Positions 8,438 through 64,000 of a DNA stretch of 64,000 nt are shown in pieces. Position 1 is the stretch's first letter, and each line of letters starts with the position of its first letter. Source of the stretch: Balneola sp. EhC07 (GTDB lineage: Bacteria > Bacteroidota > Rhodothermia > Balneolales > Balneolaceae); the NCBI RefSeq assembly GCF_001650905.1, contig NZ_LXYG01000012.1, positions 124,001-188,000 on the forward strand, given 5' to 3'. Under the pieces are notes generated by a model. The model searched no databases and was not told the origin of the DNA. It saw nothing but the letters and a program-made list of their open reading frames with translations. Both the position numbers and the translations under genes were made by a program.

Positions 8438-9211
8438 TTAACTAAAAACCAGTTTAAAAGTATTTTCATCAATAATTTCACTTGTGCTTGAATCATATCT
8501 GCGTTCCGTAAATTCAGCATTGCCATCATAATCCACTAAAAGTAGGGTGGAACATAAGGTTCCGTAATTGTCTGTTTTTATGAATATCGACGAAACAGCT
8601 TTTTCCCATTCATAAGGAATTCCTGTAGATGGCAACTTATCATCCGGAGCGGTTTTGCTGTTTGTCAGAATATTAAAAAGATCTTCTTTTGAAAAATCTT
8701 CCTTAGCAGTGACTTCTGTCAATGCTTTTTTTGCATGGTCTAATTTTGGCCAATTCGTATCCAAAAGAGCATTACTTACTCCATGAATTCCGGGTTTTAC
8801 TTCCTTGATCAAGTTGTTTTCATTCGAGAAATGAAACACTGAATCTTTATTTCCGATCAGTAGATTGAACCCATTATACTCCTCAGCTTTTCTCTGAATT
8901 TCTTGTAAATATTCTTGTTCACTTAACCCTGATTTGAAAAAATCTAACACCAAATCACCTCTTGTAGGTGCACTATCTTTGATATTCGAAGGGTCTCTGT
9001 AGTTTGTGAGTGCTCCCCATTTTCCTGTTCTGGAAACTCCCATCCAGGTTCCATTGGCTTTCAGATCTTTACCCGCGAGTATGTTCGGGAGACCTTCTTC
9101 AGTCCAAAACTGTGCTTTTCTAGTCGGTCTCTGATAAAATTCATCTCTGTTTGCCGCTACTATTAATTTGTAGCGAGGATGAGTTTTATATGAGAATGCA
9201 ATCAAACACAT
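8438..9211 (-). CDS. NRDE (TANGO2-like) family protein
   Basis: This 257-residue protein belongs to the NRDE family, related to eukaryotic TANGO2. It begins MCLIAF, so removing Met1 would expose Cys2 as an N-terminal nucleophile, as in Ntn hydrolases. The name-giving motif NRDE lies at residues 21-24, followed by FYQRPT. No signal peptide is seen, so it is probably cytoplasmic. The molecular function of bacterial members is not settled; TANGO2 homologues have been linked to heme or lipid handling, and no role is assigned here. The promoter would lie in the 86-base gap shared with the divergent phosphatase gene. Confidence 0.85.
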   Translation of the reverse strand: MCLIAFSYKTHPRYKLIVAANRDEFYQRPTRKAQFWTEEGLPNILAGKDLKANGTWMGVSRTGKWGALTNYRDPSNIKDSAPTRGDLVLDFFKSGLSEQEYLQEIQRKAEEYNGFNLLIGNKDSVFHFSNENNLIKEVKPGIHGVSNALLDTNWPKLDHAKKALTEVTAKEDFSKEDLFNILTNSKTAPDDKLPSTGIPYEWEKAVSSIFIKTDNYGTLCSTLLLVDYDGNAEFTERRYDSSTSEIIDENTFKLVFS

Positions 9212-17524: not shown

Positions 17525-20002
17525 TCAGATTTTTATCTGAAGAGTTACATAAAACGTTCTTGGGGGAGAAGGGATAATTCCCGGCCCGGGATAACCGGTC
17601 GCTCGTCTTGTAAAGTAAGATGAATTTAGAATATTGTTTACTCCTGATTCCAGAGAGAGCTGTTTATGTGACCATGACATAGAAAGATCGAGTACATCAT
17701 ATGCAGGAATTTCACCCTTAATTCCACTTTGGTTATCTCTTACATTCTGTAATGCATTTGATGCATCTGTAAACTGTTTGGAAATGTAAGTGTACTGAAC
17801 GGATCCCAACAGGTTCTTAAATCCAAAATTAACGCCTGTTTTAAGATTTAGAGTCGGAACAAATTCAACTTCATTTCCCTTAATTCCTGCAATTTCAGAA
17901 TTCAAATATTCGGATTGGGTAACAGCAGTATTGGCAAAAATGGTAAGTTTTCTATTTGTTGATGTTGTATTAAAAACCGAGAATAGATCGATTTCGATCA
18001 GGCTTTCCAGACCGTACATAAAAGCTTCTCCGATATTTCCACGAAATCGGACAATTCTACCGGTTTCTTCCTGCTCTCCATCAGCATTGGTTCGGGTTTC
18101 TGCCCGGAGCACCTCACCTAAACGGTTTTTATACAGCAATCCAAAAACGCCGACATCGTAAGAAATAACATCCCCGATTTTACCACGGATTCCAAAGTCT
18201 GACGAAAAACCACTTTCATCTGTGATATTCGGATCAACCTGAAAACTGGGGTTTATGATTCTGATATCGTTAAAAGTAACTGAGCGATAGTTCTGAGAAA
18301 AATTTCCGTAGAGATCAGTATTTAAGTCAGGCTGATAACTGAGTCCGATCCCAAGCAATACAAAATTTCGTTCAAAAGTTTTCTCTTCTTCAAAGGTTTG
18401 GTTTTGAATAGGATTTCCCGCCAGATCGAAATTCACCCGTTTATAAGAACCTTCACTTTGGGTTTTGATATACTCAAAACGAAAGCCGGGAGTGATAGAA
18501 AAATTATCTTTCACATAAAAAATGTGTTCTCCAAACAAAGCAAAGTTCTGATTAGGGAAGGTGAAATCAGATTGTCTCGGGTAATTCGGGAACTCTTCAT
18601 CAGCTAAAGTAAAATCAGCTGCACTCGAGGCAGTTCCCGGTCCTTGAATAGAAGAATTTTTCGATTGATAATATTTCGAACCGATAAGAAAGACCGCATT
18701 TTTACTGCCTAATTTATATCGCTGCAGAAAACGGGTTTCCACTCCCCAGTTATTGAAATCACCTAAGATCAGATCGCGTGGTTCGTTGGGATCATCTTGC
18801 TGAGAAACTCTGTTTGTTCTGAAACCAACTGATTTTCTGGAAGCATTTAATCCGAATGCAGTCATACTCAAACGGCTTTGATAGGTGAATCGATGATCTA
18901 GTTTCAAAGACGCCAATTTCCAATCAACCTCAAACCAGTTTCTTTCTCTGTTGCTGAATTCCGGATCATCGTAAAATTGAGCATCCGTAAGCCCGCCGGG
19001 TTGTTGAGCCAGATATCCCAGATAGGTGAAATCAGCGCTAAGTGATGTTTTATCAGACAATGCATACTCAGTAAACAAATAGACGTTGTCAGATTTAAAC
19101 TCAGAATTTGGACGGAAACTGTTTCCATTTTTATAGTTGTAATATCCCAGATAGCCGAGTTTCTTGTAAGTGCCGCTCACACTGTTATGGGAAGTAAAAA
19201 GAGCATTTGAACCGATGGACTGACGGGTTGTAAATTCAGCAACTTTGTCTTCAACCGGTGATTTCATTCTGAAATTAACCAAACCACCAAATTGTGTTCC
19301 GTACTGCAAGGAAGCCGCTCCTCGGATGATCTGAATTTCTTCGAGCGCTTCGGCGGGAGGAGTGTAATAACTTTCCGGATAACCCAAAACGTCAGCACTT
19401 ATATCATATCCATTTTGTCGGATATTGAAGTTGGAAGATCTGTTAGGATCCAGACCGCGTCCTCCGATATTTAGCTGTAATCCGGCGTCATCCGACTCAA
19501 AAATATTTAAACCGGAAACCTGGCTGTAAATTTGCCGCGCATTATTTGAAGAAGTGTTTACTGTCATTTGGCTTAGGTCAACAACTTCATTCTTTTTACC
19601 GGCATAAATAGAAGTTCCTTCCACTTCACGAAGTCGTTTTATAGAAAAGATCTGTTCCCTTTGGTTTACAACAGCAACTTCAGAAAGTTCACCGGAAAGT
19701 TTGCTTAACTGTATATTCAGGACTTCGTTTTCAGATCCTAATTGTATTACTCTGTTTGTGATCTCATACCCTAAAGCAAAAAAGAACAAATTGTATTTTC
19801 CATAGGATAGATTCTGAATCTGAAAATATCCTTCTTCATTCGGTTCATAGGATTCCCCGGAATTCTCCTCAAAAATAGCCACTTTCGACAAGGGTTCACC
19901 AGTCGCGTTATCTGTTATATATCCCGAAATAGAATACTGACTAAATGCAGGAACACAGATAAAGCAAAATATTACGAATAAGCTAAAGTCCTTTAATCTC
20001 AT
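17525..20002 (-). CDS. TonB-dependent outer-membrane receptor, FecA-like
   Basis: This 825-residue receptor has a signal peptide (1-21), a carboxypeptidase-regulatory-like domain (about 23-105), a plug domain (about 130-245, with LNIGGRGLDPNRSSNF and EEIQIIRGAASLQYG) and a 22-strand barrel ending YVTLQIKI. It should import a ferric chelate or other scarce ligand using TonB energy. It is the last gene of a four-gene unit with imelysin-like, DUF4856 and HTTM proteins, which supports an iron role. Its start overlaps the end of the HTTM gene by 20 bases, so translation is probably coupled. The ligand cannot be predicted. Confidence 0.9.
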   Translation of the reverse strand: MRLKDFSLFVIFCFICVPAFSQYSISGYITDNATGEPLSKVAIFEENSGESYEPNEEGYFQIQNLSYGKYNLFFFALGYEITNRVIQLGSENEVLNIQLSKLSGELSEVAVVNQREQIFSIKRLREVEGTSIYAGKKNEVVDLSQMTVNTSSNNARQIYSQVSGLNIFESDDAGLQLNIGGRGLDPNRSSNFNIRQNGYDISADVLGYPESYYTPPAEALEEIQIIRGAASLQYGTQFGGLVNFRMKSPVEDKVAEFTTRQSIGSNALFTSHNSVSGTYKKLGYLGYYNYKNGNSFRPNSEFKSDNVYLFTEYALSDKTSLSADFTYLGYLAQQPGGLTDAQFYDDPEFSNRERNWFEVDWKLASLKLDHRFTYQSRLSMTAFGLNASRKSVGFRTNRVSQQDDPNEPRDLILGDFNNWGVETRFLQRYKLGSKNAVFLIGSKYYQSKNSSIQGPGTASSAADFTLADEEFPNYPRQSDFTFPNQNFALFGEHIFYVKDNFSITPGFRFEYIKTQSEGSYKRVNFDLAGNPIQNQTFEEEKTFERNFVLLGIGLSYQPDLNTDLYGNFSQNYRSVTFNDIRIINPSFQVDPNITDESGFSSDFGIRGKIGDVISYDVGVFGLLYKNRLGEVLRAETRTNADGEQEETGRIVRFRGNIGEAFMYGLESLIEIDLFSVFNTTSTNRKLTIFANTAVTQSEYLNSEIAGIKGNEVEFVPTLNLKTGVNFGFKNLLGSVQYTYISKQFTDASNALQNVRDNQSGIKGEIPAYDVLDLSMSWSHKQLSLESGVNNILNSSYFTRRATGYPGPGIIPSPPRTFYVTLQIKI

Positions 20003-21353
20003 CGTTGAAAGGAAGTATCCATTTTTTTGGTTTTAAATTTCTTTTAATTGTTGTGAGATCGATTTCAGGATCAATGAACGACGCACTTCTTCTGCCATTC
20101 AGAGCAACAAAACTCTCAACATAGATTTCAGGATCTTCGATTCCCTGATTCTGATAATGCTGTTCCAGATGATGAGCATATTCAAGAATGAAATCAGGCT
20201 GTGTTGACATCTGTTTTTCCTGAAAGCGAGTCAAAAACTTAGTGTTATCTACATAAAATCTTTTCTGCGTCTCGGGATCAACAACTTTGAAATTTGCATA
20301 TCCTGCTTTTTCAATTAGCATTACCCGCCATGAAAATCTGTAACCCTCTTCAGTCCAGAATAATTCTCCGGAATACAGCAAATACCTGAATGGAAATAAG
20401 AGTTGAAAAAGGAAGAATACCCCTACAATACTGAGACTGAATTTCTTGGATATTGGGCTCTCAAATGAATATCGCTCTGAGTTGTTAAAAGCATCTAAAT
20501 CTATTTTGAAGAATGTGGAAACCCGTTCAAGAATTCGGATGTGTAATCCGGCATCAAAAAAGATTAACGCGCTTATGATCATGATGTAAGGAAACATTCC
20601 TATTGGGAACAGAATCCGGGTTAGAATGTGAAAGATCACAACAAGTACAAAAGCGAAGGTTCTGGTTCGTTTGACCAGAAGTAAAAAAGGAATAGACAGA
20701 TCATAAAGAGCGCCTCCCCATGCAAAAGCAAAATGAACCCATGATTGTTGCAACAGCTCCCCGAGTAATGGAATGGAGTATTTTGCAGGAAGCCAGATCT
20801 TTAAAGGCATTGCCTGAAAAAGCCAGTCGGAGTTCAATTTTGCTAATCCTGCATAGAAGTAAACAATAAACAGAAGCAGTTTTATAACATCGATTGTCCA
20901 GCTTGGTATAAACTCAGCTTTAAGTTTTGGGTTTCTGGCAGCATCAACTGAGAAATATGTACTAGCCGGTAGAAAAATCATCAAAAAACTGAGAATGCTG
21001 ATGAAATAATAGTGATTCAGATAGGTGGTTTTGTCCATCAGTTCTATAAAAGTAAAACTGAGGAAAAAAGTAATGATGGCAAATCGGTACTTGAAACCCA
21101 GTGAAATAAAAATGGCAGATAGCCCACAAACAGCAAAAATTAAATAGGTCCATTCACCGGGAGGTTGAACCCATTCAAATCCATAATAGGAAAAGAAGAA
21201 ATCCGGCTCGATATACAGTTTTTGTATCCATCCGTTTAACGCAAACCGAACAATGCTTATAAGCATTAACAGGCCGAAAAAAACACGAAAAACCGCTAAA
21301 GGAGCGGCTTTCGAGTAAGAATTAAGATATGTGCTAATTGAAGTTTTATTCAA
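19983..21353 (-). CDS. HTTM / vitamin K-dependent gamma-carboxylase-like membrane protein
   Basis: This 456-residue integral membrane protein has about eight hydrophobic helices in the first 330 residues, then a soluble C-terminal domain of about 120 residues that begins SWRVMLIEKAGYANF. This arrangement matches bacterial HTTM (vitamin K-dependent gamma-carboxylase-like) proteins. The biochemical activity of bacterial members is largely unknown. It begins 3 bases after the imelysin-like gene and overlaps the receptor gene by 20 bases, so it is embedded in the presumed iron-uptake operon. Confidence 0.82.
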   Translation of the reverse strand: MNKTSISTYLNSYSKAAPLAVFRVFFGLLMLISIVRFALNGWIQKLYIEPDFFFSYYGFEWVQPPGEWTYLIFAVCGLSAIFISLGFKYRFAIITFFLSFTFIELMDKTTYLNHYYFISILSFLMIFLPASTYFSVDAARNPKLKAEFIPSWTIDVIKLLLFIVYFYAGLAKLNSDWLFQAMPLKIWLPAKYSIPLLGELLQQSWVHFAFAWGGALYDLSIPFLLLVKRTRTFAFVLVVIFHILTRILFPIGMFPYIMIISALIFFDAGLHIRILERVSTFFKIDLDAFNNSERYSFESPISKKFSLSIVGVFFLFQLLFPFRYLLYSGELFWTEEGYRFSWRVMLIEKAGYANFKVVDPETQKRFYVDNTKFLTRFQEKQMSTQPDFILEYAHHLEQHYQNQGIEDPEIYVESFVALNGRRSASFIDPEIDLTTIKRNLKPKKWILPFNDEIKGL

Positions 21354-57836: not shown

Positions 57837-58841
57837 TTATAGTTGGTGGAAATAACCTTTATTCCCAATAGGAAGCCAATAACTATACCTGATAAACTTA
57901 TTCTCGCGTTTTTCTAGAGGGATTTCTTTGATTGAATAATCCATTATTGGGTGACTAACATTTTTTGCACATAAATGAAGAATTAGTATCTCAAAAATAG
58001 TAATAATATTTTCTTCTACTTCGGGTAAAAAAATTGATAAAGATACTTTTTGAAGAATAGTATCTTTAAACTCAAGCTCAATAGAAGGCTTATAAATAAT
58101 TGAGTCTGAATTCAGTTCGAAATCATTTACTGATACAAAATCTAATCTATGATCAAGACAGTTTCGAAGATTTCTAATTAACTTCATGAATTCTAAAGTA
58201 GAACTTAAGAATAGAGTAAATTCGTCTTCACTTCCATATCTCTTTTCAATTATTTCTAAGAGCTTTGGAAAATGTGATTGTTTATTCAACCCATAATCTG
58301 GATAAAAAATCAAAGTCAATTCGATCATGATTTGCTCTAAATGATCAGTTTTTTGAAAGATAGTTGTTGTGCGAGTTAGAACATCTGTAATCGAAGGGAG
58401 CGTAAAAGAAGAAGATGCTTGTTTCTTTTTAAACTTTTCTATCTCCTTTTCCTCGTCGGTAAGGAATTTTTCAATTTCTTTTTTTAGAAAATATAATTCA
58501 TGCAATAGTTCCACTGAAAGACTTAAAGCTTTTTCTAGATTCAAATCTTTTTCGAAAAATTCTGGATCAAATAATCTTTTGGAGATTAAAAGAGTTCTAG
58601 AGACTATTTCGGATTCAGCACCTTGGTCAATAATTAGTTTTTGAACATTGGTAGGTAAGTCAATATTGGTTCGTTTAGGATCTATTGTATCGGCTAAAAC
58701 AAGTTCGTAAACGGAAAATTCTTTAATTACTATTATTTTATCCTTTAATGGAATCATATCAATAATAGCACCATCTTTTTTTGTACCTACTTCACCAGAA
58801 AAACCAGAATTTCTTTTTATATCAATGGGTTGCTTTTTCAT
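57837..58841 (-). CDS. Helical protein of unknown function with HEPN-like R-x4-H motif
   Basis: This 334-residue protein was not recognised. It has no signal peptide. After a beta-rich start of about 60 residues it is predicted mostly helical, with a charged coiled segment (about 112-140). A helix at 218-233 carries RNCLDH (R226 to H231), which fits the R-x4-6-H signature of HEPN RNases with the usual polar residue after Arg. The coding sequence looks more AT-rich than its neighbours. It lies 39 bases downstream of the asparaginase gene on the same strand and could be transcribed with it. An RNase or toxin function is inference. Confidence 0.6.
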   Translation of the reverse strand: MKKQPIDIKRNSGFSGEVGTKKDGAIIDMIPLKDKIIVIKEFSVYELVLADTIDPKRTNIDLPTNVQKLIIDQGAESEIVSRTLLISKRLFDPEFFEKDLNLEKALSLSVELLHELYFLKKEIEKFLTDEEKEIEKFKKKQASSSFTLPSITDVLTRTTTIFQKTDHLEQIMIELTLIFYPDYGLNKQSHFPKLLEIIEKRYGSEDEFTLFLSSTLEFMKLIRNLRNCLDHRLDFVSVNDFELNSDSIIYKPSIELEFKDTILQKVSLSIFLPEVEENIITIFEILILHLCAKNVSHPIMDYSIKEIPLEKRENKFIRYSYWLPIGNKGYFHQL

Positions 58842-58880: not shown

Positions 58881-59852
58881 TCAAACCCTAAACTCAGAAT
58901 CTATTATCCGGTTTCCATCCTTATTGTACACACCATAATCAAAACCTTTACGAATGCTGTATGCGCCAAAAGCACCATCTTTGTTGAGGGCCAGGTAGCC
59001 GACTTGAGTATTTTTTAAGCTGGTGCCGTTTCTTTTGTTTCGGGAAATGATTCTATCGACAGCAATTTTGCAGGCTTCTTCAGGCGAGTGACCTTGTCGC
59101 ATCATTTCAACGATTAGTGCACTTCCGGCAGTTTTTACAACTTCTTCTCCCAGTCCTGTGGCACAAGCTGCACCGACTTCCGGGTCTACAAAAAGTCCGG
59201 CGCCAATAAGTGGGGAATCACCAACCCTGCCATGCATTTTCCATGCAGCACCACTGGTTGTACAGGCTCCGGAAAGTCTTCCATCCACATCAAGAGCAAG
59301 CATCCCAATCGTATCATGATTTTCAATATTTACTACCGGCTCATACTTGCCGTTTTTCAGCCATTTTTCCCAAGCTTCTTTAGCTTTTGGAGTAAGCAGA
59401 TCCATTTCTTCAAAACCTTGATCTTTGGCAAATTGCTGAGCCCCTTCTCCGGCTAACATGATATGAGGCGTTTCTTCCATTACTTTTCTGGCAACGGAAA
59501 CGGGGTTCTTATAATTTTGCAGAAAAACCACAGATCCACACTCTCCTTTATCATCCATGATGCAGGCGTCCAAAGATACATTTCCTTCTCTATCCGGACG
59601 TCCGCCATAACCCACAGACATATTTTTAGGATCATTTTCTTCAACCATAACTCCGGCTTCAACGGCATCAAGTGCATAACCACCTTTATCCAGAATTTCC
59701 CATGCTGCAACATTAGCTTTAATAGCAGTATTCCAGGTAGCTATTACAACCGGTTTGCTTCCTGTGAACTTGCTGACATTCGTGCATCCAATTCCTGCAA
59801 AAGGAATAGCTCCAAGAAGGCCGGTTTTTAAGAACTGCTTTCGGTTTAACAT
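58881..59852 (-). CDS. N4-(beta-N-acetylglucosaminyl)-L-asparaginase
   Basis: This Ntn-hydrolase of the glycosylasparaginase family cuts the bond between GlcNAc and asparagine in N-glycopeptides. The precursor is 323 residues and should self-cleave before the nucleophile T181 in NHDTIGMLA. GRVGDSPLIGAG and CATGLGEE carry the substrate-binding residues. The N-terminus has RKQF followed by a hydrophobic stretch ending GIGC (Cys23), so it is probably an exported lipoprotein. It lies 5 bases after the GH47 gene, in the same unit as GH92. Confidence 0.9.
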   Translation of the reverse strand: MLNRKQFLKTGLLGAIPFAGIGCTNVSKFTGSKPVVIATWNTAIKANVAAWEILDKGGYALDAVEAGVMVEENDPKNMSVGYGGRPDREGNVSLDACIMDDKGECGSVVFLQNYKNPVSVARKVMEETPHIMLAGEGAQQFAKDQGFEEMDLLTPKAKEAWEKWLKNGKYEPVVNIENHDTIGMLALDVDGRLSGACTTSGAAWKMHGRVGDSPLIGAGLFVDPEVGAACATGLGEEVVKTAGSALIVEMMRQGHSPEEACKIAVDRIISRNKRNGTSLKNTQVGYLALNKDGAFGAYSIRKGFDYGVYNKDGNRIIDSEFRV

Positions 59853-59857
59853 AATGG

Positions 59858-61189
59858 TTAATCTATCCTCATTGGATGTGCTTCTGTATTGAACACATGT
59901 TTATCCAAATCAAAAACTTCATCATCAGCAAAAAGGAGGTAAGCATATTTGAGGGTTTCTGCTAAAAAGAAGCTTTCCATGTCATCGCTTTTTTCTTTGG
60001 TAGTAACATCTGATAAGGCAGCATAACCATGCTCAGTTTTACAATATTCGATGAGACTCTGGAACATCACTTTCCCCATCTCAATATATTTTTCATCGCC
60101 TGTTGCCTGATATAAATAATAAGCAGACTCAATATTTTCAGGGCGCAAAGGATAGCCTGCCCAGGTTACTTCCATATCAATGTAATTCAGACCTTCAGGT
60201 TCGATGCCATGCAATTGCCACATCTTAAAATTGGATTCCTGAACTTTTTTTGCAGTTTCGATATCTCCTGCAAGGACTAAAACTCCGGGCATAAAAGCAT
60301 CCAGTGCTCCGTAAGTAGTTGCTGTTCGTTCTCCTGTGTCCATGTTTGCGCGACCATACCAGGTTCCGGTGGCAACTTCGTCGAGCAGATACTTTTCGAT
60401 TGCAGGCTCGTGAGCTTTCCATATTTTTCGGAAATCTTCATCTCCAAAAAGTAGCCATGATTTCAGTGCATATTCGTAATAAGAATCTATCATTCCTGAA
60501 ATGTGAGCTTCTTTATTCTGCCATTCACCGGTTTCTACATCAATAGTTGTTCCGACTAATCCGATTTCGGAGCGGCGCTCATACAATCCCATCATCGCTT
60601 TTTTGGCGCTGTTATAAAAAACAGAATCCTGAGTGTGCTTAGTGAGTGTCCCGAATTCTATCATTAGTGTGCCGATCTCAGCGGGGTTATTAACCTGCCA
60701 TTTGGTTTCTCCGGTTTTAAGATTTACCTGTCCGTAAGTCATACCTGTTGCTGAATCGAATGCAGGAAGTAATCTTCTTCCAAGATCTTCAGCCAATTGC
60801 AGAAATCGATCATCTCCATCCATTTCATACGCTGAAAGAAGTCCGCCTAAAAGACGAATAGTTATCTCAAAATTGGACACAAAGAAGTCATGATCGAAAG
60901 ACAATTCAGAAAAGATCAATTCTTTTGCTTCAGCGGCTTCTTCATTCAAACCCATTAATAACATAGTGTCAAAAGCATCGACCGGTGTCATCAATAAAGA
61001 TGCGTCATACCAGTTTTTAGAAGACTTTGATAACGGTTTAAGTGCGTCATCTCCCCATGCATGTTGTTTGTATCCGTTCCAAGCGTGTAGGAATTCTTGT
61101 TTTACTTGCTCAGCTAGTTGTTCTTTCTCTGATTTTTGAGGTGCACACGCTATCCCTAAAGCAAGTGCCAATAATAAAAATCTCTTCAT
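59858..61189 (-). CDS. GH47 alpha-1,2-mannosidase, lipoprotein
   Basis: This 443-residue lipoprotein (GIAC, Cys15) matches glycoside hydrolase family 47, the (alpha/alpha)7 mannosidases that remove alpha-1,2-linked mannose from high-mannose N-glycans. Hallmarks are SNFEITIRLLGGLLSAYE with E108, IDSYYEYALK with D235, RPENIES (349-355) and the calcium-binding end HVFNTEAHPM with T435. The family is common in eukaryotes and uncommon in bacteria. Its start overlaps the GH92 stop by one base, and the asparaginase gene follows 5 bases after it. Confidence 0.88.
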   Translation of the reverse strand: MKRFLLLALALGIACAPQKSEKEQLAEQVKQEFLHAWNGYKQHAWGDDALKPLSKSSKNWYDASLLMTPVDAFDTMLLMGLNEEAAEAKELIFSELSFDHDFFVSNFEITIRLLGGLLSAYEMDGDDRFLQLAEDLGRRLLPAFDSATGMTYGQVNLKTGETKWQVNNPAEIGTLMIEFGTLTKHTQDSVFYNSAKKAMMGLYERRSEIGLVGTTIDVETGEWQNKEAHISGMIDSYYEYALKSWLLFGDEDFRKIWKAHEPAIEKYLLDEVATGTWYGRANMDTGERTATTYGALDAFMPGVLVLAGDIETAKKVQESNFKMWQLHGIEPEGLNYIDMEVTWAGYPLRPENIESAYYLYQATGDEKYIEMGKVMFQSLIEYCKTEHGYAALSDVTTKEKSDDMESFFLAETLKYAYLLFADDEVFDLDKHVFNTEAHPMRID

Positions 61190-63363
61190 TAGTTTGTCGG
61201 TCTGTATTCAGTTTTCTTCGCCCAGTTTTTATTCGGTGCAGATCCCATTTCAAAGATCAATTCTCCACCCGCTATAATTTCTTCATGAGATATATAACTT
61301 CTCTCCAAAGGTTCTCCATTTAAAGATACTGACTTAATGTAAATATTTTCATCCGAAACTCCATCAGCTATAATAGTAAAAGTCTTTGTGTCAGATAAGG
61401 TTATATCAACTTGTTCAAATTGAGGAGTTCCGATCACATAATTACCAGAGGCGGGGTTTACAGGATAAAAACCCATCGCTGAAAAAATGTACCATGCGGA
61501 CATTTGTCCACAATCTTCATTTCCGCTTAACCCATCTACAGCGGTGGAATATTGAGTGTTCATTATTTCGTGAAGAATTTCCTGTGACTTCCATGGTTTT
61601 CCTGCATAATTGTATAAATACCCAATATGATGGCTGGGCTCATTTCCATGTGCATATTGGCCTATCAATCCTGAGATGTCGGGTGAGGTATTATCACCGG
61701 TGATGTTAGAGTCCTGATTGAACAATGAATCTAATCTTTGAGTAAAAGCATCTTCTCCGCCCATGAGCTCTATCAGTTTATCCACCTGATGAGGAACAAA
61801 CCAACTGTGTTGCCATGCGTTTCCTTCTGTATAGTCAGTATTTACGCGATGAACAGATCTCTTTGGGTCAAAAGGCTCAACCCAATCTCCTTCAGCGGTT
61901 TTGCCACGCATAAATTTAGTTTGAGCATCATATACATTTTGCCAGAATCCGGATCTGACAATGAAATGTTCATATTCCGACTCTTTACCGAGCATAAAAG
62001 CCATTTGAGCAATCGCCCAGTCATCGAAAGCATATTCCAGGGTTTTAGTGACTGATTCATGCTCAAGTTCAGAAGGAATGTATTGGTATTTGCGATACAG
62101 ATCAGTTCCACGCTTATTTTGCATGGCACTGGCTTTCATCGCTTCGAAAGCAAGTTCGGCGTCATAATCTCTGAATCCTTTGGCATAGGCATCCGCGATC
62201 ACCGGAATAGCGTGATAACCGGTCATAGTATTGGTTTCATTTCCGTGTAATTCCCAAACAGGAAGCAATCCGTTTTCTTTGTAGAAATCCAGCATAGTTC
62301 GGATCATGTCATTCACTCTGTCAGGATTGGTAATAGTAAGCAATGGATGCTGCGCCCGAAAAGTATCCCACAAAGAGTAAATGGTATATTTGGTTTGATC
62401 CTGATTGGCATCAGAAAACAAAACCGGAGCCAATTTGGAATGATAAAGAGCGGTATAAAAAATCGTTTTTTTCTCTTCATCTCCCTGAACTTTGATCTTG
62501 CCGAGTTCTTCATCCCAGACCATTTCAGCAAAGAGTTTGGTTTCGTCAAAATCCCAATCGTCCAGAGTTTCCAGATTTGCTAAAGCTCCTTCTTCACTGT
62601 TGGATGAAATGGCTACTTTGACGAGAACTTCTCTTCCTGCAGGCTCAAACGCCAGCGTACCAAACGATGTAAATCCTTTGTATTTAGCGGAATCAACGAT
62701 CATAAAGTCTTTTGAGAATTCCATAGCAAAATATACATGTTGATCATTCGCCCAGCCGGAAGATCTTCGGTAGCCGACCAGTTTCTTGTTTTCATTTTCT
62801 CCGATAACTTTGAAATATCCTTCAGTGAAAGAATCCCAATTCAAGCTATATCCCAGATCCAGATTTAAGTATTGAGGATCGCCATATTCGAAAGTAAATC
62901 TATACATGGCTACTCTTTCTGTGGCAGTCATCTCGGCATTGATCTCATAATCATTCAGGAAAACGCTGTAATATCCCGGAGAGCCTTTTTCGCGATCGTG
63001 AGAAAACTTGGAAGCGTAACTTCTTTTGCTTTCATATTTGGCTGAATCTGACAAGAGCACTTTTCGATTGGTTGGCATGATCAGAATGTCATTCAGATCA
63101 CCAATTCCCGTTCCGCTAAGATGAGTTTGAGCAAAACCGGTTATAATACTATCGGAATAATGATAACCTGAAACCCAATCCCAGCCCGGAGTTCCGTTTA
63201 CAGGACTTGGTTGTATCATCCCGAAGGGTAGCGTTGCTCCGGGATAAGTATGTCCGTGTCCACCGGTGCCGATGAATACATCTACGTACTTATTGGGAGA
63301 TTCGTAGCTGGAGCATGCAACAAAGAAGATGAAGAGAGGAAGAAATAAATGTGCTTTTTTCAT
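61189..63363 (-). CDS. GH92 alpha-mannosidase, lipoprotein
   Basis: This 724-residue calcium-dependent exo-alpha-mannosidase of family GH92 carries a lipobox (VAC near residue 18). Family motifs include FIGTGGHGHTYPGATLPFG, SGYHYSDS, GNETNTMTGYHAIP and NEDCGQMSAWYIFSAMGFYP. The frame is open for 32 codons further upstream, but the ATG at 63363 begins the signal peptide directly and is preferred. It is the first gene of the glycan-degradation unit. The linkage specificity (1,2, 1,3, 1,4 or 1,6) cannot be read from the sequence. Confidence 0.92.
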   Translation of the reverse strand: MKKAHLFLPLFIFFVACSSYESPNKYVDVFIGTGGHGHTYPGATLPFGMIQPSPVNGTPGWDWVSGYHYSDSIITGFAQTHLSGTGIGDLNDILIMPTNRKVLLSDSAKYESKRSYASKFSHDREKGSPGYYSVFLNDYEINAEMTATERVAMYRFTFEYGDPQYLNLDLGYSLNWDSFTEGYFKVIGENENKKLVGYRRSSGWANDQHVYFAMEFSKDFMIVDSAKYKGFTSFGTLAFEPAGREVLVKVAISSNSEEGALANLETLDDWDFDETKLFAEMVWDEELGKIKVQGDEEKKTIFYTALYHSKLAPVLFSDANQDQTKYTIYSLWDTFRAQHPLLTITNPDRVNDMIRTMLDFYKENGLLPVWELHGNETNTMTGYHAIPVIADAYAKGFRDYDAELAFEAMKASAMQNKRGTDLYRKYQYIPSELEHESVTKTLEYAFDDWAIAQMAFMLGKESEYEHFIVRSGFWQNVYDAQTKFMRGKTAEGDWVEPFDPKRSVHRVNTDYTEGNAWQHSWFVPHQVDKLIELMGGEDAFTQRLDSLFNQDSNITGDNTSPDISGLIGQYAHGNEPSHHIGYLYNYAGKPWKSQEILHEIMNTQYSTAVDGLSGNEDCGQMSAWYIFSAMGFYPVNPASGNYVIGTPQFEQVDITLSDTKTFTIIADGVSDENIYIKSVSLNGEPLERSYISHEEIIAGGELIFEMGSAPNKNWAKKTEYRPTN

Positions 63364-63440
63364 AACAGAATGATACAAAAATTGACCAAGGTTTTCGAGA
63401 CTTCTGTGTAATCTTCCGGGGCATTCTGAACGAGGTGAAA

Positions 63441-63482
63441 TTAGAATGTAGGGACGCAAAATCTTGCGTCCCTACATTCTAA
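63441..63482. repeat. 42-bp perfect palindrome (GTAGGGACGCAA type)
   Basis: The 19-base arms 63441-63459 and 63464-63482 pair perfectly around a 4-base loop. The core GTAGGGACGCAA / TTGCGTCCCTAC looks like a dispersed repeat. It lies between rdgB and the GH92 gene without a T-run. Confidence 0.8.
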
Positions 63483-63495
63483 TAATAGAAATTCA

Positions 63496-64000
63496 CTAAT
63501 CTTCCAAAAACTCTAAAAACCTCTGAACAGCTTTTCCTCTATGACTGATCAGGTTTTTGATATTAGGATCCATCTGAGCGAAGGTCTCTGCAAATTCATT
63601 CGGCATGAAGATCGGATCGTAGCCAAAGCCTTTTTTACCGATCTGATCTTCGATAATTTTTCCTTTACAAACTCCTTCGAATGTCCATTCCTGGTCTCCA
63701 TCAACTAACGCGACAACGGTTCGGAATTGTGCTGCGCGGTTTTCTTTTCCTTTTAGCGCTTCCAATAACTTCAATACATTATCCTGATAAGAAGCATTTT
63801 CGCCAGCATAACGCGCAGAATAAACTCCGGGTGCACCATCTAAAGCTTCCACTTCTAATCCGGTATCGTCAGAAAGAGCAGGAATTCCGGTTTGTTGATT
63901 TACATAACGCGCTTTTTTGAGAGCATTTCCTTCAAGTGTTGGTTTATCTTCTTCTACTTCTTCCAGATCGGGGAAGTCGAGAGCAGAAAACACATCAATA
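63496..64000 (-). CDS. rdgB: XTP/dITP pyrophosphatase RdgB, 5' end outside the window
   Basis: This cytoplasmic enzyme removes non-canonical purine nucleoside triphosphates. The visible part has LSDDTGLEVEALDGAPGVYS, GFGYDPIF and the end motif SHRGKAVQRFL, all typical of the HAM1/RdgB family. The reading frame is still open at 64000 and the usual N-terminal TxNxxK motif is missing, so the gene is cut by the window edge and not truncated in the genome. Confidence 0.95.
   Translation of the reverse strand, partial: IDVFSALDFPDLEEVEEDKPTLEGNALKKARYVNQQTGIPALSDDTGLEVEALDGAPGVYSARYAGENASYQDNVLKLLEALKGKENRAAQFRTVVALVDGDQEWTFEGVCKGKIIEDQIGKKGFGYDPIFMPNEFAETFAQMDPNIKNLISHRGKAVQRFLEFLED

Follow-up and report, generated by a model that had tools for sequence, protein, structure and literature searches.

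A Balneola operon of two mannosidase families and a glycosylasparaginase: a probable module for trimming high-mannose glycans coupled to asparagine release

How might a bacterium take apart high-mannose N-glycans if neither an endo-N-acetylglucosaminidase (endo-GlcNAcase) nor the SusC/SusD pair of a classic Bacteroidota polysaccharide-utilisation locus (PUL) lies beside its mannosidases? The question is raised by a three-gene operon of Balneola sp. EhC07 (assembly GCF_001650905.1; 3.62 Mb in 20 contigs, 98.6% complete), found in the 64,000-nucleotide stretch analyzed here and called the window below (contig NZ_LXYG01000012.1, positions 124,001 to 188,000; C12:124001-188000 in our numbering). 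On the minus strand it encodes a GH92 alpha-mannosidase (61189..63363, 724 aa), a predicted GH47 class I alpha-1,2-mannosidase (59858..61189, 443 aa) and a glycosylasparaginase (GA; N4-(beta-GlcNAc)-L-asparaginase; 58881..59852, 323 aa). The layout and the families proposed in an earlier note on this DNA are confirmed: GH92 and GH47 overlap by 1 base, 5 bases separate GH47 from GA, and Pfam places the products in GH92, GH47 and Asparaginase_2. We consider it probable that GH47 and GH92, together with a GH125 mannosidase, trim high-mannose glycans and that the glycan-asparagine remaining after proteolysis is the substrate of GA; equally probably, the operon forms a compact module in which exo-demannosylation is coupled to the release of asparagine.

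The GH47 protein matches PF01532 over its full length (417 bits, positions 2-455 of 455, far above the cut-off), and the NCBIfam scan gave no match for it. It scores 248 bits against structures of endoplasmic reticulum (ER) mannosidase I and 218 bits against 4ayo, which we take to be Caulobacter CkGH47; it shares its family and catalytic residues with the Caulobacter and the eukaryotic ER class I enzymes, being nearer to the latter, and differs in having GH92 and GA as neighbors. E108, D235 and the RPENIES motif (349-355, with E351 and E354), by which the earlier note had proposed to judge the assignment, are present and align with ER mannosidase I, as does T435, the threonine of an NTEAHP motif, and all of them are kept in 8/8 operons of this type. 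Presumably T435 binds calcium and the others are the catalytic carboxylates; the protein would be a calcium-dependent inverting alpha-1,2-mannosidase. The family had also been described as mostly eukaryotic and rare in bacteria, which holds only in part, as full-length GH47 is patchy but not very rare, occurring in 31 of the 394 genomes of our phylum sample (8 Balneolaceae and 23 others) and in none of 14 control genomes. The GH47 counts drop weak matches of 18-26 bits, namely 12 of 43 in the phylum sample and 3 of 10 in a sample of 58 Balneolaceae genomes, where one of the three lies in a genome with full-length GH47 and two in genomes with no other GH47. A recent transfer of GH47 from a eukaryote to Balneola was considered and rejected, the window protein falling, in a tree that held no eukaryotic rows, among prokaryotic sequences from several phyla (57 of 59 rows), with the nine Balneolaceae rows grouped at 100/99 support.

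The first gene encodes both the catalytic and the N-terminal domain of its family (PF07971, 589 bits; PF17678, 251 bits; both far above the cut-off), is named GH92 by NCBIfam (674 bits), and carries at E513 and D617 residues that align to the general acid and base of BT3130 and BT3990, with roles as described for these enzymes (PMC5930347). Its best matches in the PDB are 7zgm (631 bits), 6f8z (605 bits) and 6f91 (550 bits), while the alpha-1,2 enzymes 2wzs and 2wvx reach about 363 bits. According to the parts of the sources available, 7zgm is an alpha-1,3-mannosidase (PMC9522356), 6f8z (BT3130) is likely alpha-1,3-specific and 6f91 (BT3965) alpha-1,4-specific, the clade being otherwise alpha-1,3 or mixed, and the His584-Glu585 pair in the +1 loop of BT3990 is tied to alpha-1,2 activity (PMC5930347). 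In the window protein this pair is aligned with Ser560 and a gap, in a loop whose alignment is uncertain without a structure. Since the best scores belong to alpha-1,3-type enzymes and the His584-Glu585 pair has no match, the Balneola GH92 probably acts on alpha-1,3-linked mannose, and labor would be divided, with GH47 on alpha-1,2 and GH92 on alpha-1,3 linkages. The closest solved relative, B035DRAFT_03340 of Bacteroides massiliensis (7zgm), belongs to a plant N-glycan set; it has a type II signal, acts on the glycan whether free or protein-bound and, unlike the Balneola gene with its GH47 and GA neighbors, adjoins a PNGase gene (PMC9522356, as far as the consulted sections describe it).

The third protein is an N-terminal nucleophile (Ntn) hydrolase with an Asparaginase_2 match far above the cut-off (218 bits). 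An alternative is a part in general protein salvage, with isoaspartyl peptides or free asparagine as substrates in place of glycans; the enzymes do share a superfamily, and the NCBIfam profile reported for it is a beta-aspartyl-peptidase, matched at 111 bits against a cut-off of 567. Yet the protein scores 407 bits against glycosylasparaginase structures and 133 bits against the best isoaspartyl peptidase/L-asparaginase, and we regard salvage as very improbable. Its predicted autocleavage site lies between D180 and T181, and the beta chains of solved enzymes (1ayy) start at query residue 181. The HDT motif is kept in 22/22 aligned Balneolaceae relatives. Because of these scores, the position of T181 and the conserved motif, the protein looks like a glycosylasparaginase and not an isoaspartyl peptidase, and it is predicted to hydrolyze GlcNAc-Asn. 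The closest solved enzyme, aligned over about 288 residues and with the same autocleavage site, is 3ljq/1ayy, which we take to be the glycosylasparaginase of Elizabethkingia meningoseptica. Glycosylasparaginases are described as requiring free amino and carboxyl groups on the asparagine and as yielding aspartate and 1-amino-GlcNAc (PMC6960285, in part). A glycosidase and a GA working on glyco-asparagine are likewise combined in the alf-2 cluster of Lactobacillus casei (AlfC fucosidase, AsnA2 glycosylasparaginase), which differs in being intracellular, in acting on fucosylated GlcNAc-Asn and, in the sections of the source consulted, in having no mannosidases (PMC6960285).

Where these enzymes work is suggested by their amino termini. 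The GH92 protein has a Sec lipoprotein signal (FVAC followed by S), and its start is placed at ATG 63363, where the signal peptide begins, within a longer TTG frame that reaches 63459; GH47 is a likely lipoprotein (GIAC). The signal-peptide cysteine is present in 8/8 operons for GH92 and for GH47 and in 5/8 for GA, and a loose lipobox pattern fits 6/8 GH92 and 8/8 GH47 proteins, several GH47s having a glycine at the -3 position and hence a weak lipobox. GA begins with MLNRKQFLK, and a start of the (R/K)(R/K)xF type, resembling twin-arginine translocation (Tat) signals, occurs in 21/22 GA relatives, although this loose pattern also matches 7/18 GH92 and GH47 starts and is therefore unspecific. 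The lipoboxes named in the earlier note are thus borne out for the two mannosidases and poorly conserved for GA. The mannosidases would be lipoproteins and GA a Tat-exported, already self-cleaved periplasmic enzyme; since the Tat-like start is so widespread and the GA relatives mostly lack a lipobox, export of GA to the periplasm appears more likely than the surface display suggested before.

The gene-neighborhood comparison shows that the order GH92-GH47-GA recurs in eight distinct genomes of three Balneolaceae genera (the window and loci L002, L003, L004, L005, L006, L030 and L070; L036-L041 and L107 come from genomes already counted), with intergenic spacings of -4 to +9 bases. One of them, L002, is a record of a Balneola sp. 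metagenome-assembled genome whose GH47 is 98% identical to that of the window. The ratio of non-synonymous to synonymous substitution (dN/dS) is 0.03-0.11 in 9/12 comparisons, the three against L030 being saturated and L003, L006 and L070 being left out, and the operon genes are under purifying selection. Because the order is kept in eight genomes and dN/dS is low, the operon is more than a chance arrangement. In the GH47 tree as well as in the GH92 tree the operon members form a group, and other Balneolaceae GH92 paralogues fall elsewhere.

The same site also tells how the operon may have arisen. Of the other Balneolaceae GA loci, 18 stretches were retrieved (L057-L074), and all contain a GA match at 41-73% identity. 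In seven of them the HAM1/rdgB gene, which adjoins GA or GH92 in relatives and serves as a marker of the site, stands beside GA or its GH92, and an SSF sodium symporter flanks the opposite end (all seven confirmed by Pfam). No mannosidase accompanies them in four of the seven (L059, L060, L065, L066), GH92 alone does in L057, and both mannosidases are present in L070 and L071. L058, outside this set of seven, carries a more distant GH92 at 1.3 kb from its GA. L060 comes from the window's own genus; its ClpB flank is that of the window, with GH92 and GH47 missing. No symporter match remains in the other Balneola operons (L002-L005, L030), and the window has a 334-aa reading frame in its place. 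Since relatives preserve these intermediates, the cluster looks as if it was built around an older GA gene. The simplest history would start with GA and the symporter, followed by gain of GH92, then of GH47, and by loss of the symporter; alternatively, GH47 may have been lost in L057, whose part of the GH92 tree is unresolved. As a separate observation, five GA stretches without mannosidases (L062, L063, L064, L068, L072) have, next to GA or close by, a gene of one shared cluster, represented in L068 by CutC (PF03932), and a CutC relative also adjoins GA in L092, a locus outside the family.

This history lends some weight to the idea that the substrate of the mannosidases is alpha-mannan from fungi, yeast or diatoms and that GA, being there first and persisting without mannosidases in relatives, is their neighbor by history only. 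GH92 and GH125 are also used in alpha-mannan loci (PMC10154615, in part), and a sulfated alpha-1,3-mannan of diatoms is digested with a GH92 (PMC13063451, in part). However, no GH76, GH99 or sulfatase was found in the scanned reading frames of the window (these families were not searched genome-wide), and the tight coupling to GA is kept over three genera. The alpha-1,2, alpha-1,3 and alpha-1,6 linkages of high-mannose glycans, in turn, fit a GH47-GH92-GH125 set. We consider the alpha-mannan explanation unlikely. Diatom sulfated mannan in particular was rejected as a substrate: the described cascade requires sulfatases and GH195 (PMC13063451, in part), and no sulfatase was found in the scanned window frames.

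The third mannosidase of this set is encoded apart from the operon. Among the 58 Balneolaceae genomes, full-length GH47 occurs in 7, GH92 in 16, including all of these 7, and GH125 in exactly the same 7 (7/7 genomes with GH47 vs 0/51 without; 5/5 vs 0/2 in the window's genus). The naive chance of such a match is 1 in C(58,7), or 3e-9, a figure that ignores kinship. The GH125 gene of the host lies on another contig (G000:C14:307131-308330; PF06824, 544 bits) and its product has a Tat-like start. The operon seems to work with this unlinked GH125 mannosidase. Outside the family we retrieved the neighborhoods of all 23 other GH47 loci of the phylum sample (L084, L086 and L098 judged by tblastn alone). 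GH92 is present in three (L087, L103, L104), and in two of these Pfam finds a single frame of the composition GH92N-GH92-GH47 (L087, 6762-10298, 1179 aa; L104, 349-3927, 1193 aa). Both fusions are preceded by GH125 sequence, in L104 a fragment at the contig edge, and L087 additionally encodes GH20; such fusions would be a natural one-chain alpha-1,2/alpha-1,3 demannosylase of this kind of pathway. GH125 lies next to GH47 or in its cluster in 7/23 loci (L087, L090, L092, L096, L103, L104, L106; six confirmed by Pfam), and L103 carries on one strand a ROK kinase, GH47, an SSF symporter, GH92, GH130, a CBM9-like protein, phosphomannose isomerase and GH125. Among 28 named GH47 loci outside Balneolaceae, partners occur in three: GH92 in L021, GH125 in L018 and a weak GH130 in L023. 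Only a minority of these loci thus repeat the mannosidase partnership, and a GA partner has so far been seen in Balneolaceae alone.

Which enzyme, then, would release the glycan? Of the 55 window reading frames of at least 120 aa, 48 were run through Pfam, the other seven being ClpB, five frames overlapping a larger opposite-strand gene and one double-listed frame. As stated in the earlier note, these 48 contain no GH18, GH20 or GH85; they also contain no SusD, and hence no SusC/SusD pair of the kind that defines a classic PUL, in line with its suggestion that the pathway may work without one. A TonB receptor with a CarboxypepD_reg domain (17525-20002) stands without SusD, and the one SusD-like match of the host genome (E 4e-14) lies outside the window. 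In the host genome we found no match to GH18, GH85 or GH130, for which the controls are positive in 6, 1 and 4 of 14. The PF09113 C-terminal domain of PNGase F, the only PNGase model used, is silent in the 58 genomes and in the 14 controls as well, which does not show absence. An operon-linked GH20 was rejected, as the only host match is a divergent 854-aa protein in a separate locus. This protein matches PF00728 (55 bits over a partial profile) and PF02838 (78 bits), above the Pfam cut-offs, and is possibly a candidate chitobiose enzyme. It belongs to a catabolic locus (L076:14-10499; C18:88000-99000 of the same genome) with GH2, an SSF symporter, a xylose-isomerase-like TIM barrel protein, a glucosamine-6-phosphate isomerase-type protein and GH88. 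The interpretation drawn in the earlier note therefore stands as to a route without endo-GlcNAcase, given the lack of host GH18 and GH85, although the genome does encode the GH20-type protein and the SusD-like gene outside the window; a start from glycopeptides is plausible.

A release step of the conventional kind may nevertheless have been missed: a PNGase or endo-GlcNAcase would free the glycan, the mannosidases would work on it after release, and GA would do no more than clear GlcNAc-Asn stubs. The PNGase search with its one silent model leaves room for this, GH18 proteins occur in 3/7 of the GH47-bearing Balneolaceae genomes (G028, G007, G018), and described bacterial systems release by GH18, GH85 or PNGase (PMC10154615, in part). 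On the other hand, the host and three further GH47-bearing genomes (G017, G037, G053) have no GH18 match, and the four GH85 matches in relatives among the 58 genomes were rejected as weak and partial, all lying inside or overlapping GH18 matches. We regard a missed release enzyme as rather doubtful. More credible, though still short of an even chance, is a Balneolaceae route without PNGase and endo-GlcNAcase, in which, along with proteolysis, the three linkage-matched exo-mannosidases GH47, GH92 and GH125 trim a glycan still attached to asparagine and the Tat-exported GA is the sole releaser.

Taken together, trimming followed by asparagine release could proceed as follows. Glycoproteins of eukaryotes, probably of microalgae, would first be broken down by proteases, leaving short glycopeptides or glycosyl-asparagine. 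From these the lipoprotein GH47 would take off alpha-1,2 mannoses, the lipoprotein GH92 the alpha-1,3 mannose and the unlinked, co-inherited GH125 the alpha-1,6 mannose, and the exported, self-cleaving GA would hydrolyze the GlcNAc-Asn amide of the trimmed glycosyl-asparagine to aspartate and a 1-amino-sugar that turns into a GlcNAc-type sugar. Gene identities, catalytic residues, conserved order, GH47-GH125 co-occurrence, the GH92::GH47 fusions of other genomes and the lack of a GH18 or GH85 match are direct observations; we infer linkage specificity, cellular location, step order, substrate source and all activities. Exo-mannosidases in series on high-mannose glycans are also the principle of the corresponding PUL of Bacteroides thetaiotaomicron, with the GH18 BT3987 and three GH92 enzymes (PMC10154615, in part), from which Balneola differs in having no SusC/SusD pair or GH18, in that GH47 would do the alpha-1,2 step, and in placing a glycosylasparaginase last. 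E. meningoseptica, the source of the closest solved GA, has PNGase F (PMC10154615, in part), whereas in Balneola, as in the controls, the PF09113 search was silent.

Several observations weigh against this reading. The co-occurrence of GH47 and GH125 is phylogenetically dependent, five of the seven genomes belonging to one genus, which makes the independent support smaller, and GH125 is unlinked to the operon in Balneola. The third-best solved relative of the GH92 protein (6f91, 550 bits) is an alpha-1,4 enzyme. No enzyme is assigned to the beta-mannose or the chitobiose core, and a PNGase may have escaped the single-model search. In the phylum, 15/23 GH47 loci and 25/28 named loci, some with short flanks, have none of the queried partners; a good number of GH47 genes therefore act by themselves or have other partners. 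A GA-GH47 operon occurs in 0/23 and 0/28 of these loci, L092 being the only one of the 23 with GA near GH47, 7.5 kb away. Finally, 14/18 Balneolaceae GA stretches show no GH92 or GH47 match, four of them with the HAM1-GA-symporter arrangement; GA therefore also has a role independent of mannosidases.

The surroundings of the operon add some further observations. Upstream lies HAM1/rdgB, a non-canonical purine NTPase gene (63496..63999, minus strand; PF01725) that runs off the window and is a conserved neighbor outside the pathway. The 132-base gap between it and GH92 (63364..63495, minus strand) holds a 20-bp palindrome with its core at 63448-63475 (20 pairs, 4-base loop, folding z-score -6.5), of which the window has no second copy even when up to 3 mismatches are allowed. 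The exact pair of 10-base arms recurs in the same gap of the sister operon L003 (5632-5655) and in no other retrieved operon; the palindrome may be a REP-like element of the dispersed kind. Scans for promoters and terminators found no more signals than in shuffled sequence. Downstream, between GA and ClpB, the 334-aa protein (57837-58841, minus strand) has no Pfam match and no tblastn match in sister operon loci; relatives have there either nothing or an SSF symporter. Elsewhere in the window a protein with HTTM and vitamin K-dependent gamma-carboxylase lumenal domains (19983-21353, minus strand) stands beside the TonB receptor, an imelysin peptidase and a DUF4856 protein, and 8438-9211 (minus strand) encodes a member of the TANGO2 family, named for Golgi organization in eukaryotes.

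As to the natural substrate, the available parts of two reports on microalgal cultures are informative. Balneolaceae made up 18%, 22% and 20% in three culture groups of Breviolum minutum (control twice, antibiotic-treated), and surface N-glycans were mostly high-mannose in all algal samples, but, as a point against an algal source, other families prevailed in the native and the mutant cultures of the alga (PMC13298644). In Cladocopium cultures Balneola was the most diverse genus, with 26 amplicon sequence variants (PMC9101544). Given the presence of Balneola or its family in such cultures and the high-mannose surface glycans, microalgal glycoproteins are a plausible source, a point that does not extend to the strain studied here. 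Neither the operon nor a GH92::GH47 fusion was found described among the titles and beginnings of abstracts listed from the open-licence literature, which is weak evidence of novelty.

If the proposed pathway holds, glycan release can be the final step, with a glycosylasparaginase carrying it out. In eukaryotic lysosomes glycosylasparaginase performs a comparable end-step. The pathway would then also offer linked mannosidase tools, among them a naturally fused GH92::GH47 protein, and a genetic handle on the life of Balneola with microalgae rich in high-mannose N-glycans.

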